Source: Paracoccaceae bacterium
GTDB lineage: Bacteria > Pseudomonadota > Alphaproteobacteria > Rhodobacterales > Rhodobacteraceae
Assembly (NCBI GenBank): GCA_020832705.1
Contig: JAFIEE010000001.1
Location: 1-64,000 of the forward strand
Reading direction: 5' to 3'
DNA length: 64,000 bases
Shown: positions 43,921 through 54,699 of the stretch, one piece after another
How the letters are laid out: each line of letters starts with the position of its first letter
Numbering within the stretch: position 1 is the stretch's first letter
Notes under the pieces: generated by a model
Told to the model about the DNA's origin: nothing
Seen by the model: the letters and a program-made list of their open reading frames with translations, nothing else
The model's database searches: none
Position numbers and translations under genes: made by a program

Positions 43921-44691
43921 TCAGCGCGTCTCCAGAATTTGCCGCGCCCAAGCTGGTGGCGAATAGGAAAACTGCTCAAGTTCCCACGAAAAAATATCGG
44001 CGACAGTATCTAGTTGGGCCGCAGAAAGCTTGATAGATGCCCTCTTGGTGTAAACCCCTTTGGCACGTCCTATGTCCGTTGCGTCGAGTGGAACGCCCAA
44101 GTCATCAAAAACAATCTGTAGCTGCTCGACAAGTTCTTCAAATCGCAAAATTCTATCTACGAGAATCTCATTGGTCTTCGGGTGACAATATATGTATTGA
44201 TTAAAGGGGACTTGGCCGACCCCATTGGTCCTTCGGGCTTTTATTTTCTTGAGATCATGCAAATAATTGTCTATGTTGAGCTGCCGGTTTCTCTCCGCCC
44301 GCCACCTCAAGCCTGACAAGACAACGTCGTACGGATTTCTAACGACTGCGAACTTAAAATAGGATTCAAACTCCTCGGGCAGCCGGTTCTTTATGCGCCA
44401 CGCCGGCATATGGTGAAAAAAATTTCTACTCTTGTGGCTTATTGACGATTTAAGCAGCTTCATATACTCAAGGCGAACATTGAACCGTAGGCTTTCGACA
44501 ATATCTGGAATTGGATTGAACATTCCCCGATAGTTTCTTGGCTCATGCCCATCTTCACGAACCACGAAAGGTGTTAAGATATCGTCAGGTCCGCAAGCTT
44601 TTGAAAGCAGTGTTTCTACACTTGTTCCGGCAGTTTTTGCTGTCTTCACGAAAATGAAGCGGTGCTTGTGAGAGACTATCATCGTACCCAT
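43921..44691 (-). CDS. Sulfotransferase-family protein
   Basis: FIFVKTAKTAGTSVETLLSK (5'-PSB-like), FAVVRNPYDVVLSGL (3'-PB-like); clearly AT-richer than neighbours. Confidence 0.85.
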   Translation of the reverse strand: MGTMIVSHKHRFIFVKTAKTAGTSVETLLSKACGPDDILTPFVVREDGHEPRNYRGMFNPIPDIVESLRFNVRLEYMKLLKSSISHKSRNFFHHMPAWRIKNRLPEEFESYFKFAVVRNPYDVVLSGLRWRAERNRQLNIDNYLHDLKKIKARRTNGVGQVPFNQYIYCHPKTNEILVDRILRFEELVEQLQIVFDDLGVPLDATDIGRAKGVYTKRASIKLSAAQLDTVADIFSWELEQFSYSPPAWARQILETR

Positions 44692-44771
44692 TCTTTGTTG
44701 AGGCAAGATTTTCCAAGTTATCAGCGGTTCAGTGGGACGCAAGCATGAATGCTGCAGTCGATCAAGACTTG

Positions 44772-45203
44772 TCAATCCCGCCGATGCACGACACTCGGAT
44801 TTGGAGCAGAACGGGCCACGAACCGAAACGCGACTCCCCTGTTCCGCCGCTTTATATCGCTTACATGCAGCGGCGGTATCCTGCCCTGACGAGAGCGGAT
44901 CACCGCCGGGAATGTGATCATCCGGGACGGGAAGCTACGTCTTGCATAGTGCACCTTGATCCAGCATCCCATCAGCAGCAACCGCCATCGCAGGGCATGA
45001 ATGCGCCTGGCGTCTTCGGCCCGCGCGAAAAGATCGATATCGTTGTCCCAGGGCAGCAGACGCCCTTCCCGGTAGATACCGAGCAGAGTTCCGCCATCAA
45101 TGCAGAAATCAATTCCGCTCCGATGCAAGAGGTCCGCAACACGCGGCAAAAGCTGCTCTGCCTTCTGCAACAAGCGCCCCTCAAGTCTTCGGCTGCCCGC
45201 CAT
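44772..45203 (-). pseudogene. Truncated LicD-like protein (copy A)
   Basis: First ~87 aa near-identical to 45705-46319 product (GTLLGIYREGRLLPWDNDIDLFARAEDA); C-terminus replaced by unrelated sequence. Confidence 0.8.
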
Positions 45204-45205
45204 GT

Positions 45206-45649
45206 TCAGTCGCCCCCTGTGAGTGCGTTGAGCGCCTGTCGCAACAACGTGCTTGATGTGGTTTCTGTGTAGGGAAAATAGACAATCTCTACATCGCGAT
45301 CCTTGAATTCGCGCTCCAAGGCGTTCCAGGCGGGGGTTCCACGCCAGTCGCTCCCCACCATCATCTTATTGAAACGCAATCGCTCCCATGCAGCGATCTT
45401 GTCCATGTCGTCCTGCGGGACGACCTGGTCAACAAAGCGCAGGCTTTGCACAATATCCACACGCTCGGCAAAGGGAATAACCGGCTTCTTCTTCTTTCTT
45501 TGAAAACAGAGTTCATCGGTCGTGACACCGACAATGAGATAATCGCAACTCAGTTTCGCGCGGCGCAGGATATTCAGATGCCCAATGTGAAAAAGATCAA
45601 ATACACCAGTTGTGTATCCGATACTGCCTTGACCCAAGTCCCCGTTCAT
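45206..45649 (-). CDS. Cytidylyltransferase-like protein (TagD-type)
   Basis: YTTGVFDLFHIGHLNILRRAK (HxGH), VGSDWRGTPAW, TTSSTLLRQAL; 147 aa. Confidence 0.9.
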   Translation of the reverse strand: MNGDLGQGSIGYTTGVFDLFHIGHLNILRRAKLSCDYLIVGVTTDELCFQRKKKKPVIPFAERVDIVQSLRFVDQVVPQDDMDKIAAWERLRFNKMMVGSDWRGTPAWNALEREFKDRDVEIVYFPYTETTSSTLLRQALNALTGGD

Positions 45650-45704
45650 TGCGAACCATCTCCTTATGAAATGCTCTGGCCGTATGTATTAATAAGTCCC
45701 AGGT

Positions 45705-46319
45705 CTACGTCCTGCCCCCCTCACCAGAGACAATTGCACTATCATCTTTCACCCAAGAATAATCCTTGACTGGCACCCGCCAGTCACCATAGCGCGCGGT
45801 CAGATACTCTTCGACATGCGCGGGGATCGGATAGGTCTTGCCCTTGAATTCGATTTCGTCAAACTGATCGTAATACTTCCGCGAAATTTTCTTGTGAACC
45901 TGATTCTTACAACCAATCACCCAATGATAGTCAACACCATCACAATATTTCAGAAATATATCAATATGCACTCTGTCACCATTGATCTTGGGAATATAGC
46001 CGATCTTCATGCTTCTTGGCGCACCTTCCGGAATCGGCCCATACGCCTTCTTTGACGGTCTGATCTTGATCCAACATCCCATCATAAGCAATTTCCAGCG
46101 CAAGGCGTAAATGCGTTCAGCGTCCTCTGCCCGCGCGAAAAGATCGATATCATTGTCCCATGGCAGCAGGCGTCCCTCTCGATAGATTCCGAGCAATGTG
46201 CCGGACTCGAGACAGAAATCGATTCCGCTGTCACGCAACAGATCGGCCACACGCGGCAAGAGTTGCTCCGCCTTCTTCAACAAACGCCCCTCTAGTCTCC
46301 GGTCTCCCGCCATGGTCAT
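45705..46319 (-). CDS. LicD-family protein (copy B, intact)
   Basis: ESGTLLGIYREGRLLPWDNDIDLFAR; conserved C-terminal half retained. Confidence 0.85.
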   Translation of the reverse strand: MTMAGDRRLEGRLLKKAEQLLPRVADLLRDSGIDFCLESGTLLGIYREGRLLPWDNDIDLFARAEDAERIYALRWKLLMMGCWIKIRPSKKAYGPIPEGAPRSMKIGYIPKINGDRVHIDIFLKYCDGVDYHWVIGCKNQVHKKISRKYYDQFDEIEFKGKTYPIPAHVEEYLTARYGDWRVPVKDYSWVKDDSAIVSGEGGRT

Positions 46320-46390
46320 TCGCTCCTTGTGAGTTGACTTAACGCTTGCCGCAGCAGTGTGCACGACGTTACTTCGGTTCAGGGTAAGAA
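46316..46390 (-). pseudogene. Vestigial 3' end of a second TagD-like gene
   Basis: Minus-strand reading FLP*TEVTSCTLLRQALSQLTRSE* aligns to the intact TagD C-terminus YFPYTETTSSTLLRQALNALTGGD*. Confidence 0.75.
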
Positions 46391-46416
46391 CTTGTCTTCG
46401 AATTCTTCAAGCTGTA

Positions 46417-46821
46417 TCAAAGAACTTGCCCAAGCCTTTCGACATAGGATCGCGCACAGCGGTCCAGATCCTCGGGTGTATCGATCTCATGCCAGAAACC
46501 GTCACCGGCCTGAACCGGAAAGATGGTCGAGCGCTCGATGATCGTGGCATAGGCATGGGCCGGAAACATTTGCAGACCCTTCTTAGCTGTCAGAACGGCG
46601 GCCGTCTCGAACAGGAGGGCAGAATCCTCGGCCCCAAATTTCATCAACTGCAGGCTTTGTGCATGGGCTTCAGCGGCCGGGACAGCCTTGCTAAAGCGCG
46701 TGATCCGGCCCTCTTCAATCACGACATTCATTTCGCCGTCAATGAGCGGCAAACGATCATCGATCAGGGCCGCAGTGGCGGCAGGCGCATTGATCAGGTG
46801 GCCATGCCTTCCCGCGAACAA
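46417..46821 (-). pseudogene. 3' fragment of a nucleotidyltransferase (LicC-like NTP transferase)
   Basis: DGEMNVVIEEGRITRFSKAV...GDGFWHEIDTPEDLDRC resembles C-terminal half; N-terminal GxGxR nucleotide-binding segment absent. Confidence 0.65.
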
Positions 46822-46852
46822 AAGACTGAATTTGTCAAGGAATATTACTCCT

Positions 46853-46952
46853 CCATGCGCGTTTCAGAAAATCCTGATGCGCGCAGGCACAGGTGCGGGT
46901 GTCTTGCCCCGCACAAACGCCGATCCCGCATCCGGTGCGATTACGCCTTGCT
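46853..46952. repeat. ~100-bp direct repeat, copy 1 (nested inverted repeats)
   Basis: About 91% identical to 48245-48344 with a 56-bp identical core (46883-46938). Confidence 0.95.
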
Positions 46953-46989
46953 GACCTTTATCCACGACTGCGAGATTCCGGTTTCGCAT

Positions 46990-48237
46990 TCATCGCGAAT
47001 CGGCTCCTTCTTCCAGCCCTATCTCAAGCCCCATACGCCGGACATCCTTCGGTGTGAACAGCGTGCGGCGCCACAACTGATTGGATGCCCTGTCCCGAGT
47101 TCGCATATCCGAGATATACCCAGGATCAGGGGTGCGCCATGTCTTGCCGTAATAGCCTTCGAGGATGCGCTCGGCATTGTTCGGCACCAGAACGGGCACT
47201 CCCGCCATCATGACCTGCCGGGCCGGCAGGATATCATCGCGCGTGCAGCGCACCTTCTTGCCGGTATACATGATCAGATCGTCCCCGTGGAACCAAAGCG
47301 GAACGCCCAGGGAAATGATGACGTCTTCCCCCTGACGATGTACGCTCAGATCTCTCCGTACTTGCGTAACCAACGGCCAAGCCTCAAGGCGTTTCGCGAA
47401 TTCAAGAGCCTCTTTCCGCACCTCTTCCGGGGTTTCGAGGTCCGACAGGTAGCTGACGTCGAAATCATCATCGTTTTCGATCACCCCGCCCTCGCGGATA
47501 CAGCCCAGCAAGGTGCCGTAGGAAACAAACAACGGCTTTCCGGTTGCAGCCTCGAACCTTGCGGCGATGTCGACATAGGCATCCAGGTATTCCTGCTGCC
47601 GCTTGGCGACTGCGTTCGGGTTGGCCTGTGCCAGCTCTCCCTTCTTGGTCAGCAGGTTCCCCTTTGCAGCGAGACCAGCGAGTTCCCCGGACGCGTTTGG
47701 AATCCGGACGCGGATGGCATCTGCGCCGCCATGGGACAGCCGGGCGCCGGTGTCGTCGACGATACTCAGCCCACATTCAGTCGGGAAGGACCTTACGAGC
47801 TCATGCCCAAGCAGGGCGTCGAACTTTGTCTGTCGCCCGGGCAAGTTGCGCTTGCAAACAGGGATGTCGTCGATGTGAACTGTCACCGAGGGCGTGTTAC
47901 CCGACTTCACCGCTCCCGCGATGAATATCCCGCCTTTCGACTCCAGCGCGTCAAATGTCCCTCCCGGGCGGAGGGCCCGGACGATCGCGGCGAGCGCGCT
48001 GGTTTCAACGACAATGCGGCTTGCGCCGGTTTCCGTCGGAACAGACCCTTCGCGAAGTCTCTGGCGCCGCGTCAGTTCAGCCTTCCAGGTCGACCTTCCA
48101 ATTATCCGCCAGCGGGTCAGGGTATCGATCCCCGGCAGGTGCACCATCAGCCACACGATGAGCGCATGCAGGCCGCGCCCGATGGGCGGAACGTAACAGG
48201 CGGCCCGGACGAGCCTTATGTATAATGTCTGGGACAT
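46990..48237 (-). CDS. LicD-family phosphotransferase-like protein
   Basis: FVSYGTLLGCIREGGVIENDDDFDVSYL; 415 aa. Confidence 0.85.
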   Translation of the reverse strand: MSQTLYIRLVRAACYVPPIGRGLHALIVWLMVHLPGIDTLTRWRIIGRSTWKAELTRRQRLREGSVPTETGASRIVVETSALAAIVRALRPGGTFDALESKGGIFIAGAVKSGNTPSVTVHIDDIPVCKRNLPGRQTKFDALLGHELVRSFPTECGLSIVDDTGARLSHGGADAIRVRIPNASGELAGLAAKGNLLTKKGELAQANPNAVAKRQQEYLDAYVDIAARFEAATGKPLFVSYGTLLGCIREGGVIENDDDFDVSYLSDLETPEEVRKEALEFAKRLEAWPLVTQVRRDLSVHRQGEDVIISLGVPLWFHGDDLIMYTGKKVRCTRDDILPARQVMMAGVPVLVPNNAERILEGYYGKTWRTPDPGYISDMRTRDRASNQLWRRTLFTPKDVRRMGLEIGLEEGADSR

Positions 48238-48244
48238 TCTTCCC

Positions 48245-48344
48245 CCATGCGCCTTTCAGGAAAACCGGATGCGTGCAGGCACAGGTGCGGGTGTCTTGCC
48301 CCGCACAAACGCCGATCCCGCATCCGGTGCAATACCGCGTTGCT
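48245..48344. repeat. ~100-bp direct repeat, copy 2 (nested inverted repeats), immediately 5' of LicD-like gene
   Basis: CCGGATGCG...GTGCGGG-TGTCTTGC-CCCGCAC...CGCATCCGG; 56-bp identical core 48275-48330. Confidence 0.95.
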
Positions 48345-48364
48345 GCCCCTTGCCATCGGACCTG

Positions 48365-49198
48365 TCACAACGACAGCCGTCTTGCATCTTCGCGCGAGAC
48401 ACGCATGCCATAGTGCAACATGACCGCCGCCGCTGTCAGTGCGGCCACAGCCGTAAAGACAACAAGGAAGGGCATCTGCACATTGAACAGGATTGCACCC
48501 AGGAAAAGCGGCGCCAGCGTCAACTGATTGAACTCCCGCGGCAGGCTCGACCGCATCCGGCGCAACACCCCCCCGCGTTTCGGCCCGTCAGGCTGGGCAG
48601 TGTCCGGTTTCGGCAGAATTCTGGCCGCCTTCTGGTGCACAAGCCGCATCAACAGGCTCAGGTTGCTTGCAAGCCCACCGAGCAGGATGAACTCTCCGGA
48701 AAAGAAGTAGACCGGTGTTGTCTGCTCGACATAGAGACCAAGCGCGAGCGGCATGAGCATGTAGCAGAAATAACCGCCGACGGCATCGAACCACGGGCCG
48801 AACAGGGATTTCAATCCGTTCGCCCGCGCAATGTTCCCGTCGACACAATCCAGCAGCGCAACAAGAACGAACACGACGGCGCCGATGAGTGCGAGCACCC
48901 TGTCTCCAGTGGCGATCAGAAACGCCGCAGGGAATGCCAGCAGCAGCCCAAGGAGCGTGACCTGATTGGCCGTGACCCCCATCCGGTGCAGAACCCAGGA
49001 TACGGGGATCGAAACCGGGCGAAACAGGTATCTTTCAACCGTGCTTGCGCCGTCCTTCTTGGACTGAGGGAGATAGGACTTGAATTCTTCAAGGGTCACA
49101 GTGTTCTCCGGTTCAGACAGGTGCCGCCCATATTCATCCTGCTGCCTATTGTTCAACGGATCACATTTCTTGCACAGGGCAGTATCAGTGAATATCAC
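48365..49198 (-). CDS. CDP-alcohol phosphatidyltransferase family protein
   Basis: DCVDGNIARANGLKSLFGPWFDAVGGYF (CDP-OH-P motif variant), multi-TM; 277 aa. Confidence 0.85.
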   Translation of the reverse strand: MIFTDTALCKKCDPLNNRQQDEYGRHLSEPENTVTLEEFKSYLPQSKKDGASTVERYLFRPVSIPVSWVLHRMGVTANQVTLLGLLLAFPAAFLIATGDRVLALIGAVVFVLVALLDCVDGNIARANGLKSLFGPWFDAVGGYFCYMLMPLALGLYVEQTTPVYFFSGEFILLGGLASNLSLLMRLVHQKAARILPKPDTAQPDGPKRGGVLRRMRSSLPREFNQLTLAPLFLGAILFNVQMPFLVVFTAVAALTAAAVMLHYGMRVSREDARRLSL

Positions 49199-49223: not shown

Positions 49224-49769
49224 TTACTCAGTATAGAATACCGGCGCGTCGGGGTCGGGCGTGATGAATTCCCTTTGCAGCGTGGTCTCGATCGCCTCGG
49301 CAAGCGGCGTCTGGGCGGTGAAGCCTTCGACGGCGTGTGCGGCACTGGCGAAACGAGTCGTCGCGCAGAACTTCCGCACCCTGATCGCGCTGACGGGCAG
49401 CGTTCTGCCGCTGATGCGCGCGGCCACATCCGCTGCATGGCCTGCGACCATGCCCAGCCACAAGGGCAGACGCAGGCCGACCCCTTCCTTCCCGAAAAGC
49501 CGCCAGCGCACCAGCGCTACCAGTTCATTCATGGTCAGGTCGGGCTTGTCGACGTAGTTGTACAGATGCACCCCCGGACCGAAACCCGCAGCAAAATGCA
49601 GAAAGGCCGCAACGTTCTCGACATAGGCCATGGACTTGCTGTTCTGCCCGTTGCCGATCATCACGAACTTTCCGGAACTGATGAAAGACAGCAGGTTGAA
49701 GACATTGCCCCGGTTTCCAGGTCCAAACACCACGGTTGTCGTTCCTCGATCCCGAATGCAAGAAACCAT
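49224..49769 (-). pseudogene. 5'-truncated NAD-dependent epimerase/dehydratase
   Basis: TTVVFGPGNRGNVFNLLSFISSGKFVMIGNGQNSKSMAYVENVAAFL is SDR-extended C-terminal half; Rossmann GxxGxxG and YxxxK parts missing. Confidence 0.75.
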
Positions 49770-50154
49770 GCTGCACCTGCAAAGCCCACCGGCTGACCTG
49801 CCGGAAATTGCAGCAAGTGCAGGTCAACGCGGGCAAGGGCTTGCAGGTAATCACGAGGCTCAAGGTTTCGGGCGCCCCGATGTTCGGAGAGAGTGTGACC
49901 GATGTCGCCGGGTATTTCATCGACCCGCCGGATGTTGCCGTTTCGCTGTCTCCTGACGAGACGTCCCGGAACCAGGCGTCGGCCGGAACCAGGCCCCGGA
50001 TCGCACGCAACCGGGGCTGCCGCTCAAGGAAGAACCAGCCCAAGCCCCTGAAACCGATACCTCCAGACCGCGCCTGCAAATTCCCGGAGCGCGCCGCTGG
50101 GAAATCGCCACGGGATTTGCGACAAGACCCGCACCGGACCCGGCTTCGACGGCG

Positions 50155-50391: not shown

Positions 50392-51144
50392 TCAGCGCAT
50401 CTGCTCCGAAATGCTGCTGCTCGATACCGGAACGGTGATCATTCCGCCCGAAGGCGTTACGTCGATCTGGCCGACCTCGACACAGGCCGGTCTGCTCCAG
50501 AGTTGATCCGATGTTTCAAAGCGAAGGCGCGTGATCCGCATGTCGTCGGAAACCCAGGTGTCGTGGACAAGGCCGATCATGGTCCCCGTGCTGTCAAAGA
50601 CAGGCATGCCGGTAAAGTTCTGCGAGTTACCCTCGCCTATGCACCGCGGCATACCCCCGCGCATCGTGACTGTCCCGCGCGGGACGACCGGCGTTCCCGG
50701 CGTGGCGGACCCATTCCCGCCGTTGCCGCCATTGCCGCCGTTTCCACCGTTCCCGCCGTTTCCGTTCCCGGGCTCACCGCCATTCGAGCCATCGCCGATT
50801 CCGACACCGATCAAACCACCGCTGCCCTCACCGCCGACACTGACACCCGCGGCGCCGCCGGTGCCGTCGCCACCGACACTGACACCCGCGGCCCCGCCGG
50901 TGCCGTCGCCCCCGACACCGACGCCTGCAACACTGCCGCTGCCGCTGCCGCCTATGCCGACGGACACCGCAGCGTCATCCGCATCCTGGCCGACCCCGAC
51001 AGAGACAACACCGCCCAGGTTGACCCCCACGCCATCGCCCAGGAATGCTTGTGCCTGGACGGCGGGGAAACAGATAAGCGCGCAGATCACGCCCGATACG
51101 GTGGTTCTGCGCGACGTTGCCGAGAATTTCTCAAGCATCGACAA
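50392..51144 (-). CDS. Secreted Gly-rich repeat protein with C-terminal PRC-barrel-like domain (paralogue 1)
   Basis: Signal peptide, GVGVGGDGTGGAAGVSVGG repeats, (NGG)n linker, GMPVFDSTGTMIGLVHDTWVSDDMRITRLRFE. Confidence 0.75.
   Translation of the reverse strand: MSMLEKFSATSRRTTVSGVICALICFPAVQAQAFLGDGVGVNLGGVVSVGVGQDADDAAVSVGIGGSGSGSVAGVGVGGDGTGGAAGVSVGGDGTGGAAGVSVGGEGSGGLIGVGIGDGSNGGEPGNGNGGNGGNGGNGGNGGNGSATPGTPVVPRGTVTMRGGMPRCIGEGNSQNFTGMPVFDSTGTMIGLVHDTWVSDDMRITRLRFETSDQLWSRPACVEVGQIDVTPSGGMITVPVSSSSISEQMR
50834..50911. repeat. 39-bp tandem repeat x2 encoding VGGDGTGGAAGVS
   Basis: CCGACACTGACACCCGCGGC(G/C)CCGCCGGTGCCGTCGCC(A/C) twice, two mismatches. Confidence 0.9.
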
Positions 51145-51752
51145 TTCTCCATCTTAACATCAAGTGACTTCAGGTCCCACGCTGCGCACCGGAACGGATC
51201 AGCACCTCCGAAGAAATCGAGGCACTCGGAACATTCGGCGACGGAGTTGCAATCAGAGGGTGCGCTCGCCCACTCTCTCTAAGGCAGTCCGCCAAAGGGG
51301 TGATATCCGCCTTTGGGTCGAACCATACCAAAGTGCGATACCGTCAAATTGCAGCAAGTCACTGTTTATATTATATAAATATCAAATCCGCGCGTGCACC
51401 CTGGCGCGCGGCGGCCAAGACTTCGGGGCTGCAGGGTCTGCCAGGCCGCCGCATCGGACCTTCGGTCGATAAGTCGGCGATCAGCCTGAGGGTGTATGTC
51501 GCACGCGCGGCGACAGTCGTATCAATGCACGGATCGCCTGGCGCCGAGCGTCGCACCGTGTCGTCAGTTCGCGGTTTTAACAGGTCCCGCGCATGAGGTT
51601 GGCTATCACGTGAGCGCCTCGGGTCCCGACTTCGCCGGGGGTCTTGCGGCCCGGGTTGAACCAAATCCGGGCCGCACCATGAGAACGGAAGCAACCGGTG
51701 CGCGAGGAGCAGTTGCAACGAATACGGACTGAAACAACACGGGATCGAGCTG

Positions 51753-52394
51753 ATGAGCATCTCTTCGAACTTTTCGCCGACCGGCGCCTCTCGACCGTCA
51801 CGATTGCATGAAGCGTTGCGCGCGCTGGCCGCGCGCTGGTCGGGCGGCAGCCCGGACCAGACCGAAAAGACCTGCAGCGCGCGCATCAGCAGCCCGCACA
51901 GCGCCGACGTCTCGCGGGAACTTGTGGAGTCGCTCTTCACGCGTGAGTCCGCGTTGCGCGCAGGCCTTGCGGATGATGGCATCAGCGACGCGCTTGCGAC
52001 GGTGTGTCACCTGGAATGCCATGTCGTCTGCGCCGGCGGGGGGCTGGCCGCGCATGCGTCATGGCTGTCGGACCGGTTCCGGCACGTCCGGTGCTGGACC
52101 AGCGTCTGCAGCGCCACGAACTTTGTCGTCGCACCGCGCAAGCCGTCGCCGCGGTTCCTGCTGGTCGATCATGATGTGGTCTCGGCCCGCGCCGATGTGG
52201 TGAGTGACCTGATCCAGTTCCGTCGCCATGAGCCATTGACCCCCGTAATCCTTGCGTCGCGGTGGTTCCGGCGCCACGAGTTTTCGCGCCTGCGTTCCGC
52301 CATTGCGGATGTGTCTCTGGCGCTGCCGGTCAGCGGCGAAACGATGGAACAGGCCATTGTCCAGGCGGTTGCGAATTGTGACCGACACCACTGA
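51753..52394 (+). CDS. Degenerate receiver-domain-like protein
   Basis: FLLVDHDVVSARADVVSDLIQFRRHEPLTPVILASRWFRRHEFSRLRSAIADVSLALPVS; 213 aa. Confidence 0.6.
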   Translation: MSISSNFSPTGASRPSRLHEALRALAARWSGGSPDQTEKTCSARISSPHSADVSRELVESLFTRESALRAGLADDGISDALATVCHLECHVVCAGGGLAAHASWLSDRFRHVRCWTSVCSATNFVVAPRKPSPRFLLVDHDVVSARADVVSDLIQFRRHEPLTPVILASRWFRRHEFSRLRSAIADVSLALPVSGETMEQAIVQAVANCDRHH

Positions 52395-52415
52395 CGCCGT
52401 GGCGGCCGAAAGCCA

Positions 52416-52886
52416 TTGAGTTGTCCTGTTGACCGGCTTCGTCTATGCAGGAACGGATCAGGCGACAGGAAGTGCTCGGACGTGACGCCGGAATCCGCAC
52501 GCGCAAAAGGACGCTGGGCAGCGGTGTTGCTGTGTCTCGTGACACTTTCCGCACCGCTTGCCGCCAATGCGCAACCCATCGACCGCACAGCGGCAGTCGC
52601 CGTCGCGGCTGACCGTGCGCCCGAGAACAGGTATCTTGATGTCATTGACGCACTCGAACGTCAGGGATACCGGATCCTCGCCGTGCGGCAGACGCTCTTG
52701 CGCCGCGTCCTGATCCGCGCCGAGACCGATATCCACCTGCGCGAGATCGTGGTCAGCCGTGCGAACGGTGGCATCCTGCGGGATGTCATCGTCGAGGAAT
52801 ACACCGCCGTACGTCGCTGGATCGATGACGCGCCCCCGGCGGATATCAGACCCGGCGACATCGACCCAACGTTGCTTCCGGACTAG
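52416..52886 (+). CDS. Exported small protein, PepSY-like
   Basis: Signal peptide WAAVLLCLVTLSAPLAANAQ; RYLDVIDALERQGYRILAVRQTLLRRVLIRAE...REIVVSRANGGILRDVI. Start could be internal GTG at 52482. Confidence 0.6.
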   Translation: MSCPVDRLRLCRNGSGDRKCSDVTPESARAKGRWAAVLLCLVTLSAPLAANAQPIDRTAAVAVAADRAPENRYLDVIDALERQGYRILAVRQTLLRRVLIRAETDIHLREIVVSRANGGILRDVIVEEYTAVRRWIDDAPPADIRPGDIDPTLLPD

Positions 52887-52952
52887 ACCCCCCATGCACA
52901 GCGGCTCCGGAGATCTGCATGAACGCGTCAACCCTGTCCTGCGGAACCGGAC

Positions 52953-53465
52953 ATGAAGCGCCACAGCAAAGGAACGCTCGTCCTTCTGGTCTGCGCTCTC
53001 GTCGTCCAGTTCATGGGGGCGGGATTCTTCATCGCGAAGATCCTTTCCGATGTCTTCCTGTTCCGGATCCCGTTCATTCCGTGGGAAATGGTCGAGGTCC
53101 TGGAGCTGATGGCCAGTGTCGGGCTGCTGTTCGGGGTGGCGAGCAGTGTCACCCTGATCCTGATGTCTGTCCGCAGGATCGATCGCCTTTCGGACCAGAT
53201 CACTGCTCTTGGCGGGCAGTTCCAGGAATACATCGACCGTCAGTTCCTGGAGTGGAATCTGACCCCGACCGAGCGCAATGTCGCCCTGCTGGCAATCAAG
53301 GGGTTCAGCAACGCCGAGATCGCCCGTCTTCGGGGCACGACCGAGTCAACCGTCAAGTCGCAACTCACATCGATATTCCGCAAGACAGGCCTTTCGAGCC
53401 GTCAGCAATTGACGACCTATTTCATCGAGGATCTGGTCTCAACCCTCGATCAGGGGCCGCAATAG
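52953..53465 (+). CDS. Membrane-anchored LuxR-type HTH regulator
   Basis: Two N-terminal TM segments, then LTPTERNVALLAIKGFSNAEIARLRGTTESTVKSQLTSIFRKTGLSSRQQL. Confidence 0.88.
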   Translation: MKRHSKGTLVLLVCALVVQFMGAGFFIAKILSDVFLFRIPFIPWEMVEVLELMASVGLLFGVASSVTLILMSVRRIDRLSDQITALGGQFQEYIDRQFLEWNLTPTERNVALLAIKGFSNAEIARLRGTTESTVKSQLTSIFRKTGLSSRQQLTTYFIEDLVSTLDQGPQ

Positions 53466-53654
53466 GCGCCCGGGCGCGCGGCTGCAGCCTGCCATGTTGC
53501 GGTCATCAGGATGGGGGGCGCGTCCGGCCCAGGCAGCGCGGGCGCAGGATTCTGCACCGCTATTGCAAATTCGGATGCACCCTGCGAGAGTGGGTCCCCT
53601 TTGCGGTTGGTCACGCTGCAGAAACAACCTCTGCGCGAAAGGGAGGGGTTCACA

Positions 53655-54386
53655 ATGTATCCGGAAGTTGCATGTTCCCGGCGAATGGCCCGGACTCTGG
53701 CCACGCTTGTCGTTGCCCTGACACTGGGCCTGGGCGTGAATGCGCCTGCCCGGGCGCTTGACCTCAATCTCGGTGGCGCGGGCGGTATCAGTGTCGGCAT
53801 CGGTGGCGGGGGCGGCGGGCTTGGCGTTGAAGCGAATGTCGGCGGGGACAGCGGCATCGGCGCGGGCGTCAGCGTCGGTGGCGAGAGCCTTGCGGGCGTG
53901 GAGGCCTCGGTCGGGGGGGACGATGGGGTGAATGCGTCGGCGACCCTGGGCGGCGACTCGCTGCTTGAAGCGGAGGTGGGTGTCGGTGGCGGGTCTTCCG
54001 GAACGACACCACCGGGCGAAGACCCGGGCGCGGGTCCCGGGCCGGACCCCGAGGCGCCTTTCCCACCGATTGACGGGGTCCGCTTGCAGGACGTGTCACC
54101 CGATCTGCTTGCTGCTGCACGCAGGGCGCGGTGTCGGCATGACGGCAACAGTTCGGCCTATGACGGTTTTGTTGTGTTCGATCCGCAGGGCACCGCCGTC
54201 GGTGTGGTCCACGGCGCGCGGGTATCGACCGGCCTCGACATCGCGGATCTGTGGATGGCCACGCTTCCCCGCGACGGTCTGCGGACAGGTTGCGTGCTGA
54301 TCCGCGCGCCGCAGGCGCGTGTCGGAAACGGTGCCATGCTCATCGCCGTGCCCTGGGAGCGCCTGGCAACTTCGCTGACCCGCTGA
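53655..54386 (+). CDS. Secreted Gly-rich repeat protein with C-terminal PRC-barrel-like domain (paralogue 2)
   Basis: Signal peptide, GVEANVGGDSGIGAGVSVGGES repeats, GFVVFDPQGTAVGVVHGARVSTGLDIADLWM. Confidence 0.75.
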   Translation: MYPEVACSRRMARTLATLVVALTLGLGVNAPARALDLNLGGAGGISVGIGGGGGGLGVEANVGGDSGIGAGVSVGGESLAGVEASVGGDDGVNASATLGGDSLLEAEVGVGGGSSGTTPPGEDPGAGPGPDPEAPFPPIDGVRLQDVSPDLLAAARRARCRHDGNSSAYDGFVVFDPQGTAVGVVHGARVSTGLDIADLWMATLPRDGLRTGCVLIRAPQARVGNGAMLIAVPWERLATSLTR

Positions 54387-54605: not shown

Positions 54606-54654
54606 CCCAGCGCCCAGCGCCCAGCGCCCAGCGCCCAGCGCCCAGCGCCCAGCG
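54606..54654. repeat. Heptanucleotide tandem repeat (CCCAGCG)7
   Basis: Seven perfect copies read directly. Confidence 0.97.
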
Positions 54655-54699
54655 CAAGGACTGCACGATAGAAACGTGGAATCAAGCATCCGGTTGGCG

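Follow-up and report, generated by a model that had tools for sequence, protein, structure and literature searches.

We examined a group of five genes in a 64,000-nucleotide stretch of a Paracoccaceae bacterium genome (positions 1 to 64,000 of contig JAFIEE010000001.1, hereafter the window). Two of these genes encode exported glycine-rich proteins (Gly-rich 1 and Gly-rich 2), and between them lie genes for a receiver-like protein, a short exported PepSY-like protein and a predicted membrane-tethered regulator with a LuxR-type helix-turn-helix (HTH) domain. All five open reading frames (ORFs) that an initial annotation had claimed for this region were recovered, and the features are as follows.

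50392-51144, minus strand: Gly-rich 1, exported protein; likely start ATG at 51138; signal peptide, repeats of the GVSVGGDGTGG type, a GGN linker and a C-terminal PRC-like domain with a cysteine pair
50395-50679, minus strand: PRC-like C-terminal domain of Gly-rich 1; invariant C13 and C66 (alignment numbering); profile match 4.4e-35; AlphaFold2 (AF2) model and Foldseek matches
51292-51334, no strand: candidate operator region in the gap that separates Gly-rich 1 from the divergently oriented receiver-like gene; exact ACCAAAGT at 51327-51334, CCAAAG/CTTTGG cores at 51292 and 51311
51753-52394, plus strand: stand-alone degenerate receiver with CheY-like fold; nearest solved sequence the CpaE atypical receiver
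52416-52886, plus strand: short exported PepSY-like protein; start uncertain, GTG at 52482 plausible
52953-53465, plus strand: membrane-tethered LuxR-type regulator with two transmembrane helices (about residues 8-30 and 52-73), an outer loop of about 20 residues with a conserved PW, and the HTH at residues 102-156
53655-54386, plus strand: Gly-rich 2, exported paralogue of Gly-rich 1; ORF opens at 53511, likely start ATG at 53655
54114-54377, plus strand: PRC-like C-terminal domain of Gly-rich 2; profile match 2.5e-27

The locus had been put forward as undescribed, in line with the family searches: Pfam and NCBIfam name no family here except the HTH, and in an annotated close relative every gene but the regulator is listed as a hypothetical protein. 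Among the five proteins the HTH alone scored above its Pfam cut-off, PRC was sub-threshold in Gly-rich 1, and the other three proteins had no significant family. No description of a PRC-barrel, PepSY, LuxR and glycine-rich combination in Rhodobacteraceae was found in the literature searched, most subscription papers lying outside its coverage. The cluster thus appears to be previously unnamed; a membrane-tethered regulator with an exported partner is a known kind of arrangement, and the family of exported proteins with glycine repeats and a PRC domain is probably undescribed.

Properties of the encoded proteins

The description of the regulator as a membrane-anchored LuxR-type protein with two transmembrane helices was borne out by two hydropathy peaks above 2.0 and by a match of the HTH to GerE (PF00196) at 39.5 bits against a cut-off of 23.5; this joining of a DNA-binding domain to transmembrane helices is conserved in 64 aligned relatives. 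By the positive-inside rule the basic ends of the protein are predicted to lie inside the cell and the short loop outside, and two residues there, W44 and E48, are nearly invariant across both subfamilies described below. The autoinducer-binding domain of quorum-sensing LuxR proteins is not present, residues 1-100 being made up of the two helices and a linker, and Pfam gave no match outside the HTH region.

The PepSY-like gene lies just upstream of the regulator gene in 21 of 23 named regulator loci and, by tblastn, in about 29 of 38 others. The encoded proteins share a conserved pattern, but the PepSY identity itself drew weak Pfam support: with PF03413 and PF13670 tested, PepSY_2 was the top recurring match, in 3 of 16 members and always below the cut-off (0.0019 in a homologue linked to trpB), and the window protein had no Pfam PepSY match. 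In three loci (L054, L128 and the Thioclava plasmid locus L162) the PepSY-like protein carries a glycine-repeat tail, and the union of both parts in a single exported chain suggests a joint role. In loci linked to trpB the PepSY-like gene is sometimes duplicated, and both copies in L042 end in long Asp-rich tails.

The receiver-like protein, for which Pfam gave no family match, was modelled with five strands in receiver order, and its listed Protein Data Bank (PDB) matches were almost all receivers, CpaE included (E 2.8e-4; TM-score up to 0.74 by target length). Among 14 receiver-like homologues D141 (the phospho-Asp position), S169 and P192 are invariant, while the acidic pair after strand 1 and the lysine before P192 were found in none of the 14. 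The protein therefore fits its earlier description as a degenerate receiver, keeping the fold and lacking part of the phosphorylation site. Judging from what is known of receiver chemistry, these losses make ordinary phosphorylation unlikely.

Both glycine-rich proteins contain the C-terminal strings and GVSVGGD-type repeats quoted in the initial annotation, which had also called them paralogues; the homology of their C-terminal domains, with profile E-values down to 1e-35, confirms this. In the AF2 model of Gly-rich 1 the repeats have low confidence, and the C-terminal domain adopts a beta fold with a per-residue confidence (pLDDT) mostly of about 88-96. Its best Foldseek matches in the PDB were almost all PRC barrels (reaction-centre H subunits, 3htr, archaeal PRC1/PRC2, CdpB and CdvA), at E-values of about 5e-3 that are probably this modest because the query took in the low-confidence half of the protein. 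The proposed PRC-barrel likeness is thus seen in the fold but not at the Pfam sequence threshold: against PF05239 Gly-rich 1 scored 17.8 bits with a cut-off of 21.2, Gly-rich 2 had no match, and only 4 of 31 family members matched at E <= 0.1 (best 2e-4). Two cysteines are invariant throughout the family alignment and probably form a disulphide. Sequence matches of the PRC profile to CBS proteins in the PDB were set aside, as they seem to reflect chance similarity over short motifs.

Co-occurrence of the genes in Rhodobacteraceae

Relatives of the regulator were present in 94 of 150 sampled Rhodobacteraceae genomes, and most of them align over the transmembrane region and the HTH, usually at 30-47% identity. 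The commoner kind, which includes most of those examined, occupies a conserved site downstream of trpB, where the PepSY-like gene immediately precedes it in the same orientation and glycine-rich genes are absent; this widespread arrangement is itself undescribed in the literature searched. In a tree of 64 regulators the members linked to glycine-rich genes group together as a near-single clade apart from the trpB-linked group, the linkage requiring 2 changes compared with a shuffled mean of 17.6 (none of 500 shuffles was as low), and the window regulator groups with those of Natronohydrobacter and Alkalilacustris at a support of 99. The two subfamilies also differ in their recognition helices (glycine-linked/trpB-linked: 132 S/G, 136 S/A, 138 L,V/T, 139 T,S/N and 140 S/A), which suggests different DNA sites. 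The PepSY-like and LuxR-type genes therefore form a conserved, co-oriented pair, and in one clade this pair is inherited together with exported glycine-repeat/PRC (Gly-PRC) proteins, often with a stand-alone degenerate receiver.

In the first search the closest relative of the regulator (locus L035) already had a divergent glycine-rich gene beside the PepSY-like and LuxR-type genes. A Gly-PRC profile was built from the C-terminal domains of L035 and both window proteins, the C-terminal domain alone being used as query because searches with the full-length, low-complexity protein gave unreliable matches. This profile matched in 8 of 298 and then in 13 of 397 Rhodobacteraceae genomes, mostly true relatives, and a sample of 288 further genomes from across the class gave no match. 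Searching without the regulator yielded 12 true Gly-PRC loci, seven of which adjoin a two-helix LuxR-type gene (G000, G094, G260, G206, G155, G230 and G327); three of the remaining five lie beside isocitrate dehydrogenase. When the seed loci (the window and L035) were left out, 5 of 10 Gly-PRC loci adjoined the regulator, compared with 0.03 expected by our arithmetic if each 4-Mb genome carries roughly one copy of the regulator and adjacency is taken as 5 kb to either side.

A scan of Genome Taxonomy Database (GTDB) genomes with the glycine-associated regulators gave the 23 named loci, in which frequencies are biased towards glycine-linked members because the query was built from them; the clustering in the tree is less affected. 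They include Natronohydrobacter thiooxidans (68% identity), Roseinatronobacter, Alkalilacustris, Frigidibacter, Solirhodobacter, Maritimibacter, Anianabacter and Allosediminivita. Of the 23, 18 carry Gly-PRC genes (two copies in 11) and 13 carry the receiver-like gene, or 14 if clustering is used, and the full set with two Gly-PRC genes occurs in eight loci, some of them close kin (L117/L118 and L113/L114). The question raised with the initial annotation, whether the genes co-occur elsewhere, is thus answered by their recurrence in other Rhodobacteraceae, and the five-gene arrangement it had drawn holds as a gene set but not as a fixed order, the receiver-like and second glycine-rich genes often being missing. 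From the genomes searched, the locus appears to be conserved within a single family of marine, salt-loving and alkali-loving bacteria, where its carriers are scattered. These numbers leave little of the idea that unrelated envelope genes are neighbours by chance and that the glycine-rich likeness is low-complexity convergence: the glycine-repeat regions alone do give weak, unreliable matches, but the PRC domain with its cysteine pair is a real family by profile and the co-occurrence is far above chance, so that this explanation is hardly credible.

Several further observations concern the surroundings of these genes. In eight loci (L088, L113, L117, L118, L120, L124, L125 and L126, of which L088 and L118 are the same genome) an ICMT-like multi-pass membrane protein, matching PF04140 at 1.3e-5 in one member and absent from the window, is encoded near the glycine-rich gene and is possibly a modifying enzyme for the module. 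A second Gly-PRC gene set without regulator lies near isocitrate dehydrogenase in L091, L092 and L093, with a C-V-G-x-C motif in two of the three. On a Leisingera plasmid (L164, 4950-5378) a shorter related LuxR-family gene directly follows a 9.2-kb gene with Ig-like domains, a hint of a surface-protein link. In the window, the C-terminal half of an NAD-dependent epimerase-like gene (49224-50079, minus strand) adjoins the module with no intact N-terminal half and appears to be a broken gene. Surface-glycan-type genes at 43921-49198 encode a sulfotransferase family protein, two LicD-family proteins and a CDP-alcohol phosphatidyltransferase, and a perfect tandem array of CCCAGCG (54606-54655, 7.1 copies) separates Gly-rich 2 from a gene of the beta-lactamase fold.

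A candidate operator and the proposed signalling module

Counting 8-mers upstream of glycine-rich genes against the rest of the loci ranked ACCAAGGT first (6 of its 7 occurrences upstream) and ACCAAAGT second (5 of 8) among 8929 8-mers. Exact sites of the combined motif ACCAARGT lay within 400 bp upstream of glycine-rich genes in 11 of 15 cases, which gives 11 sites over 11.4 kb of such sequence. The remaining non-coding DNA had 2 sites over 41 kb (Fisher p = 2.7e-6 for this comparison), and coding DNA had 2 over 316 kb. Since the motif had been chosen on the same data, it was re-tested on split halves with non-coding controls. The first held-out half contained 5 sites in 6.2 kb compared with 1 in 17.0 kb (p = 0.0066), and the second 6 in 5.2 kb compared with 0 in 11.7 kb (p = 8.5e-4); ranking alone picks ACCAARGT (at rank 2) from just one of the halves, so the split test is supportive and not fully blind. 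Dyad symmetry is seen in the flanks outside the 8-mer, where 28 of 56 positions at offsets 1-4 are complementary and 14 would be expected, and extra half-sites cluster weakly near exact sites (p = 0.04). In Marivivens (L128), whose PepSY-like protein carries the glycine-repeat tail and which has no separate glycine-rich gene, the perfect palindrome CTCCAACCAAAGTTGGAG stands shortly upstream of the PepSY-like and LuxR-type genes. Across the 64 kb of the window a single exact site occurs, at a distance of 193 bp from the start of Gly-rich 1 and of 422 bp from the start of the receiver-like gene. Gly-rich 2, which starts 190 bp after the regulator gene, may be co-transcribed with it.

Taken together, we regard it as fairly probable that the locus is a self-contained envelope-to-DNA signalling module, a co-component switch resembling ToxRS that controls its own exported glycine-rich PRC proteins. 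The PepSY-like protein and the regulator would form the sensor, the former acting outside the inner membrane in contact with the PW-containing outer loop and the membrane helices of the latter. Inside, the HTH would bind ACCAARGT dyads between the divergent glycine-rich gene and the receiver/PepSY/LuxR genes and thereby set the expression of the glycine-rich proteins and, by feedback, that of the operon, with the degenerate receiver modulating the HTH protein through binding and not through phosphorylation. Once exported, the glycine-rich proteins would associate via their PRC domains, each probably held by a disulphide bond, and act in or beyond the envelope, where they may plausibly serve as matrix or surface-layer material.

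Several findings weigh against such a module. The outer loop of the regulator is so short that a ligand-binding sensor domain is absent, and the PepSY identity of its exported partner is weak. Gly-PRC genes also occur where the regulator does not (L091-L093, L139 and L140), and the regulator is absent from four other genomes of the genus to which the window belongs. The ACCAARGT sites, candidate operators assigned to this regulator through co-occurrence, were found in exact form in under half of 31 glycine-rich gene promoters; none lies within 400 bp upstream of Gly-rich 2 in the window or near the PRC-bearing glycine-rich genes of a congeneric plasmid copy (L161). Motif finding by expectation maximisation in the sequences preceding glycine-rich genes, at widths of 16 and 20 bp, gave nothing better than shuffles did. 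The initially suggested link between regulator and glycine-rich genes gains independent support from the shared upstream motif and the co-inheritance, although the motif reaches only part of the promoters. A third, unlinked Gly-PRC gene in Frigidibacter (L091) has three exact sites in its 16-kb stretch and none just upstream, giving no sign of regulation in trans.

The first alternative, which we consider rather unlikely but worth weighing, retains a regulated surface module and dispenses with envelope sensing. The membrane anchor would keep the LuxR-type protein near its target genes and the export machinery, the PepSY-like protein would be an exported structural or chaperone component, and input would come from inside the cell via the degenerate receiver as a CpaE-like localisation or partner protein. 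The very short outer loop fits this view. So does the receiver-like gene, which accompanies the regulator at more than half of the named loci and has the CpaE atypical receiver as its nearest solved sequence, and so do the glycine-tailed fusions, which make the PepSY-like protein resemble a cargo or subunit chaperone. Against it, the pairing of PepSY-like and regulator genes persists where glycine-rich or receiver-like genes are missing (most trpB-type loci; 29 of 38 by tblastn), which favours a partnership between these two proteins.

Less probable still is that the motif and the glycine-rich genes answer to a different, global regulator (of biofilm formation or stress, for instance) and that the PepSY-LuxR pair is linked to them otherwise, such as on a horizontally transferred envelope island. 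The module is indeed patchy within the genus of the window and plasmid-borne in Roseinatronobacter sp. S2 (on a 613-kb plasmid, all genes but the regulator being annotated as hypothetical proteins), the window copy adjoins LicD, CDP-alcohol transferase and sulfotransferase genes, and most second glycine-rich genes lack the motif. However, the linkage is stable over many genera despite different flanking genes, the glycine-linked regulators come close to a single clade, and in L128 the site lies upstream of the regulator genes themselves.

Within the envelope-to-DNA module we tentatively consider, as an unlikely refinement, that its input is how far its own exported polymer has been assembled. 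Gly-PRC subunits still unassembled, or a PepSY-like partner binding glycine repeats as the glycine-tailed fusions suggest, would act on the membrane-embedded LuxR-type protein, which would then raise or lower synthesis at the ACCAARGT operators. If so, the exported PRC barrel would be the assembly domain, and the pseudo-receiver the modulator on the inside, of a surface-polymer system that monitors itself and is specific to Rhodobacteraceae.

Relation to known systems

Most of what is known about membrane-tethered transcription factors comes from enteric pathogens, and here a LuxR-type factor with two transmembrane helices and a conserved exported partner is found in over half of the sampled Rhodobacteraceae. 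As one clade of it lies next to its probable targets and to a candidate operator, input, DNA site and output are testable, and culturable carriers exist in Frigidibacter albus and Maritimibacter alkaliphilus. The glycine-repeat proteins would represent a new exported family using a PRC barrel outside the cytoplasm. Known PRC-barrel proteins such as the reaction-centre H subunit, CdpB/PRC1-PRC2 and CdvA share the fold, and several serve as assembly domains in complexes or filaments. In contrast to these, the glycine-rich proteins are predicted to be exported behind a signal peptide, carry two invariant cysteines and an attached glycine-repeat region, and fall below the Pfam PRC cut-off. Similarly, the CpaE/TadZ atypical receiver and other pseudo-receivers have the receiver fold without a complete phosphorylation site, like the window protein, which differs from CpaE/TadZ in standing alone at about 200 amino acids with no ATPase domain.

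Regulators of the VtrA/ToxR type have an N-terminal DNA-binding domain, one transmembrane helix and a periplasmic domain, and the VtrC partner is lipocalin-like. The module resembles ToxR/ToxS, VtrA/VtrC and TcpP/TcpH in the adjacency of a membrane-tethered HTH regulator and an exported partner, in having its targets nearby and in forming a restricted, fast-evolving cassette (PMC9214523). On the other hand, the window regulator has a C-terminal LuxR-type HTH, two transmembrane helices, an outer loop of about 20 residues and a PepSY-like partner, and no sequence homology is claimed. As such a loop does not provide the periplasmic domain that defines the ToxR/VtrA superfamily and forms a heterodimer with the partner, we propose that the module works like that class without filing it there. 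Transmembrane transcription regulators in general likewise tether a DNA-binding domain to the inner membrane, and no mention of LuxR or GerE was found in the main text of a survey of them, which does not discuss this class (PMC10269533). The membrane-spanning LuxR-type regulators DadR, CadR and HcdR of Eggerthella lenta share with the window protein an N-terminal transmembrane region, a C-terminal LuxR-type HTH and control of neighbouring genes (PMC9734109). Whereas these span the membrane with 10-12 helices, respond to small-molecule inducers and target enzymes (PMC9734109), the window regulator has two helices, an exported partner and, as probable targets, exported proteins of a structural type.

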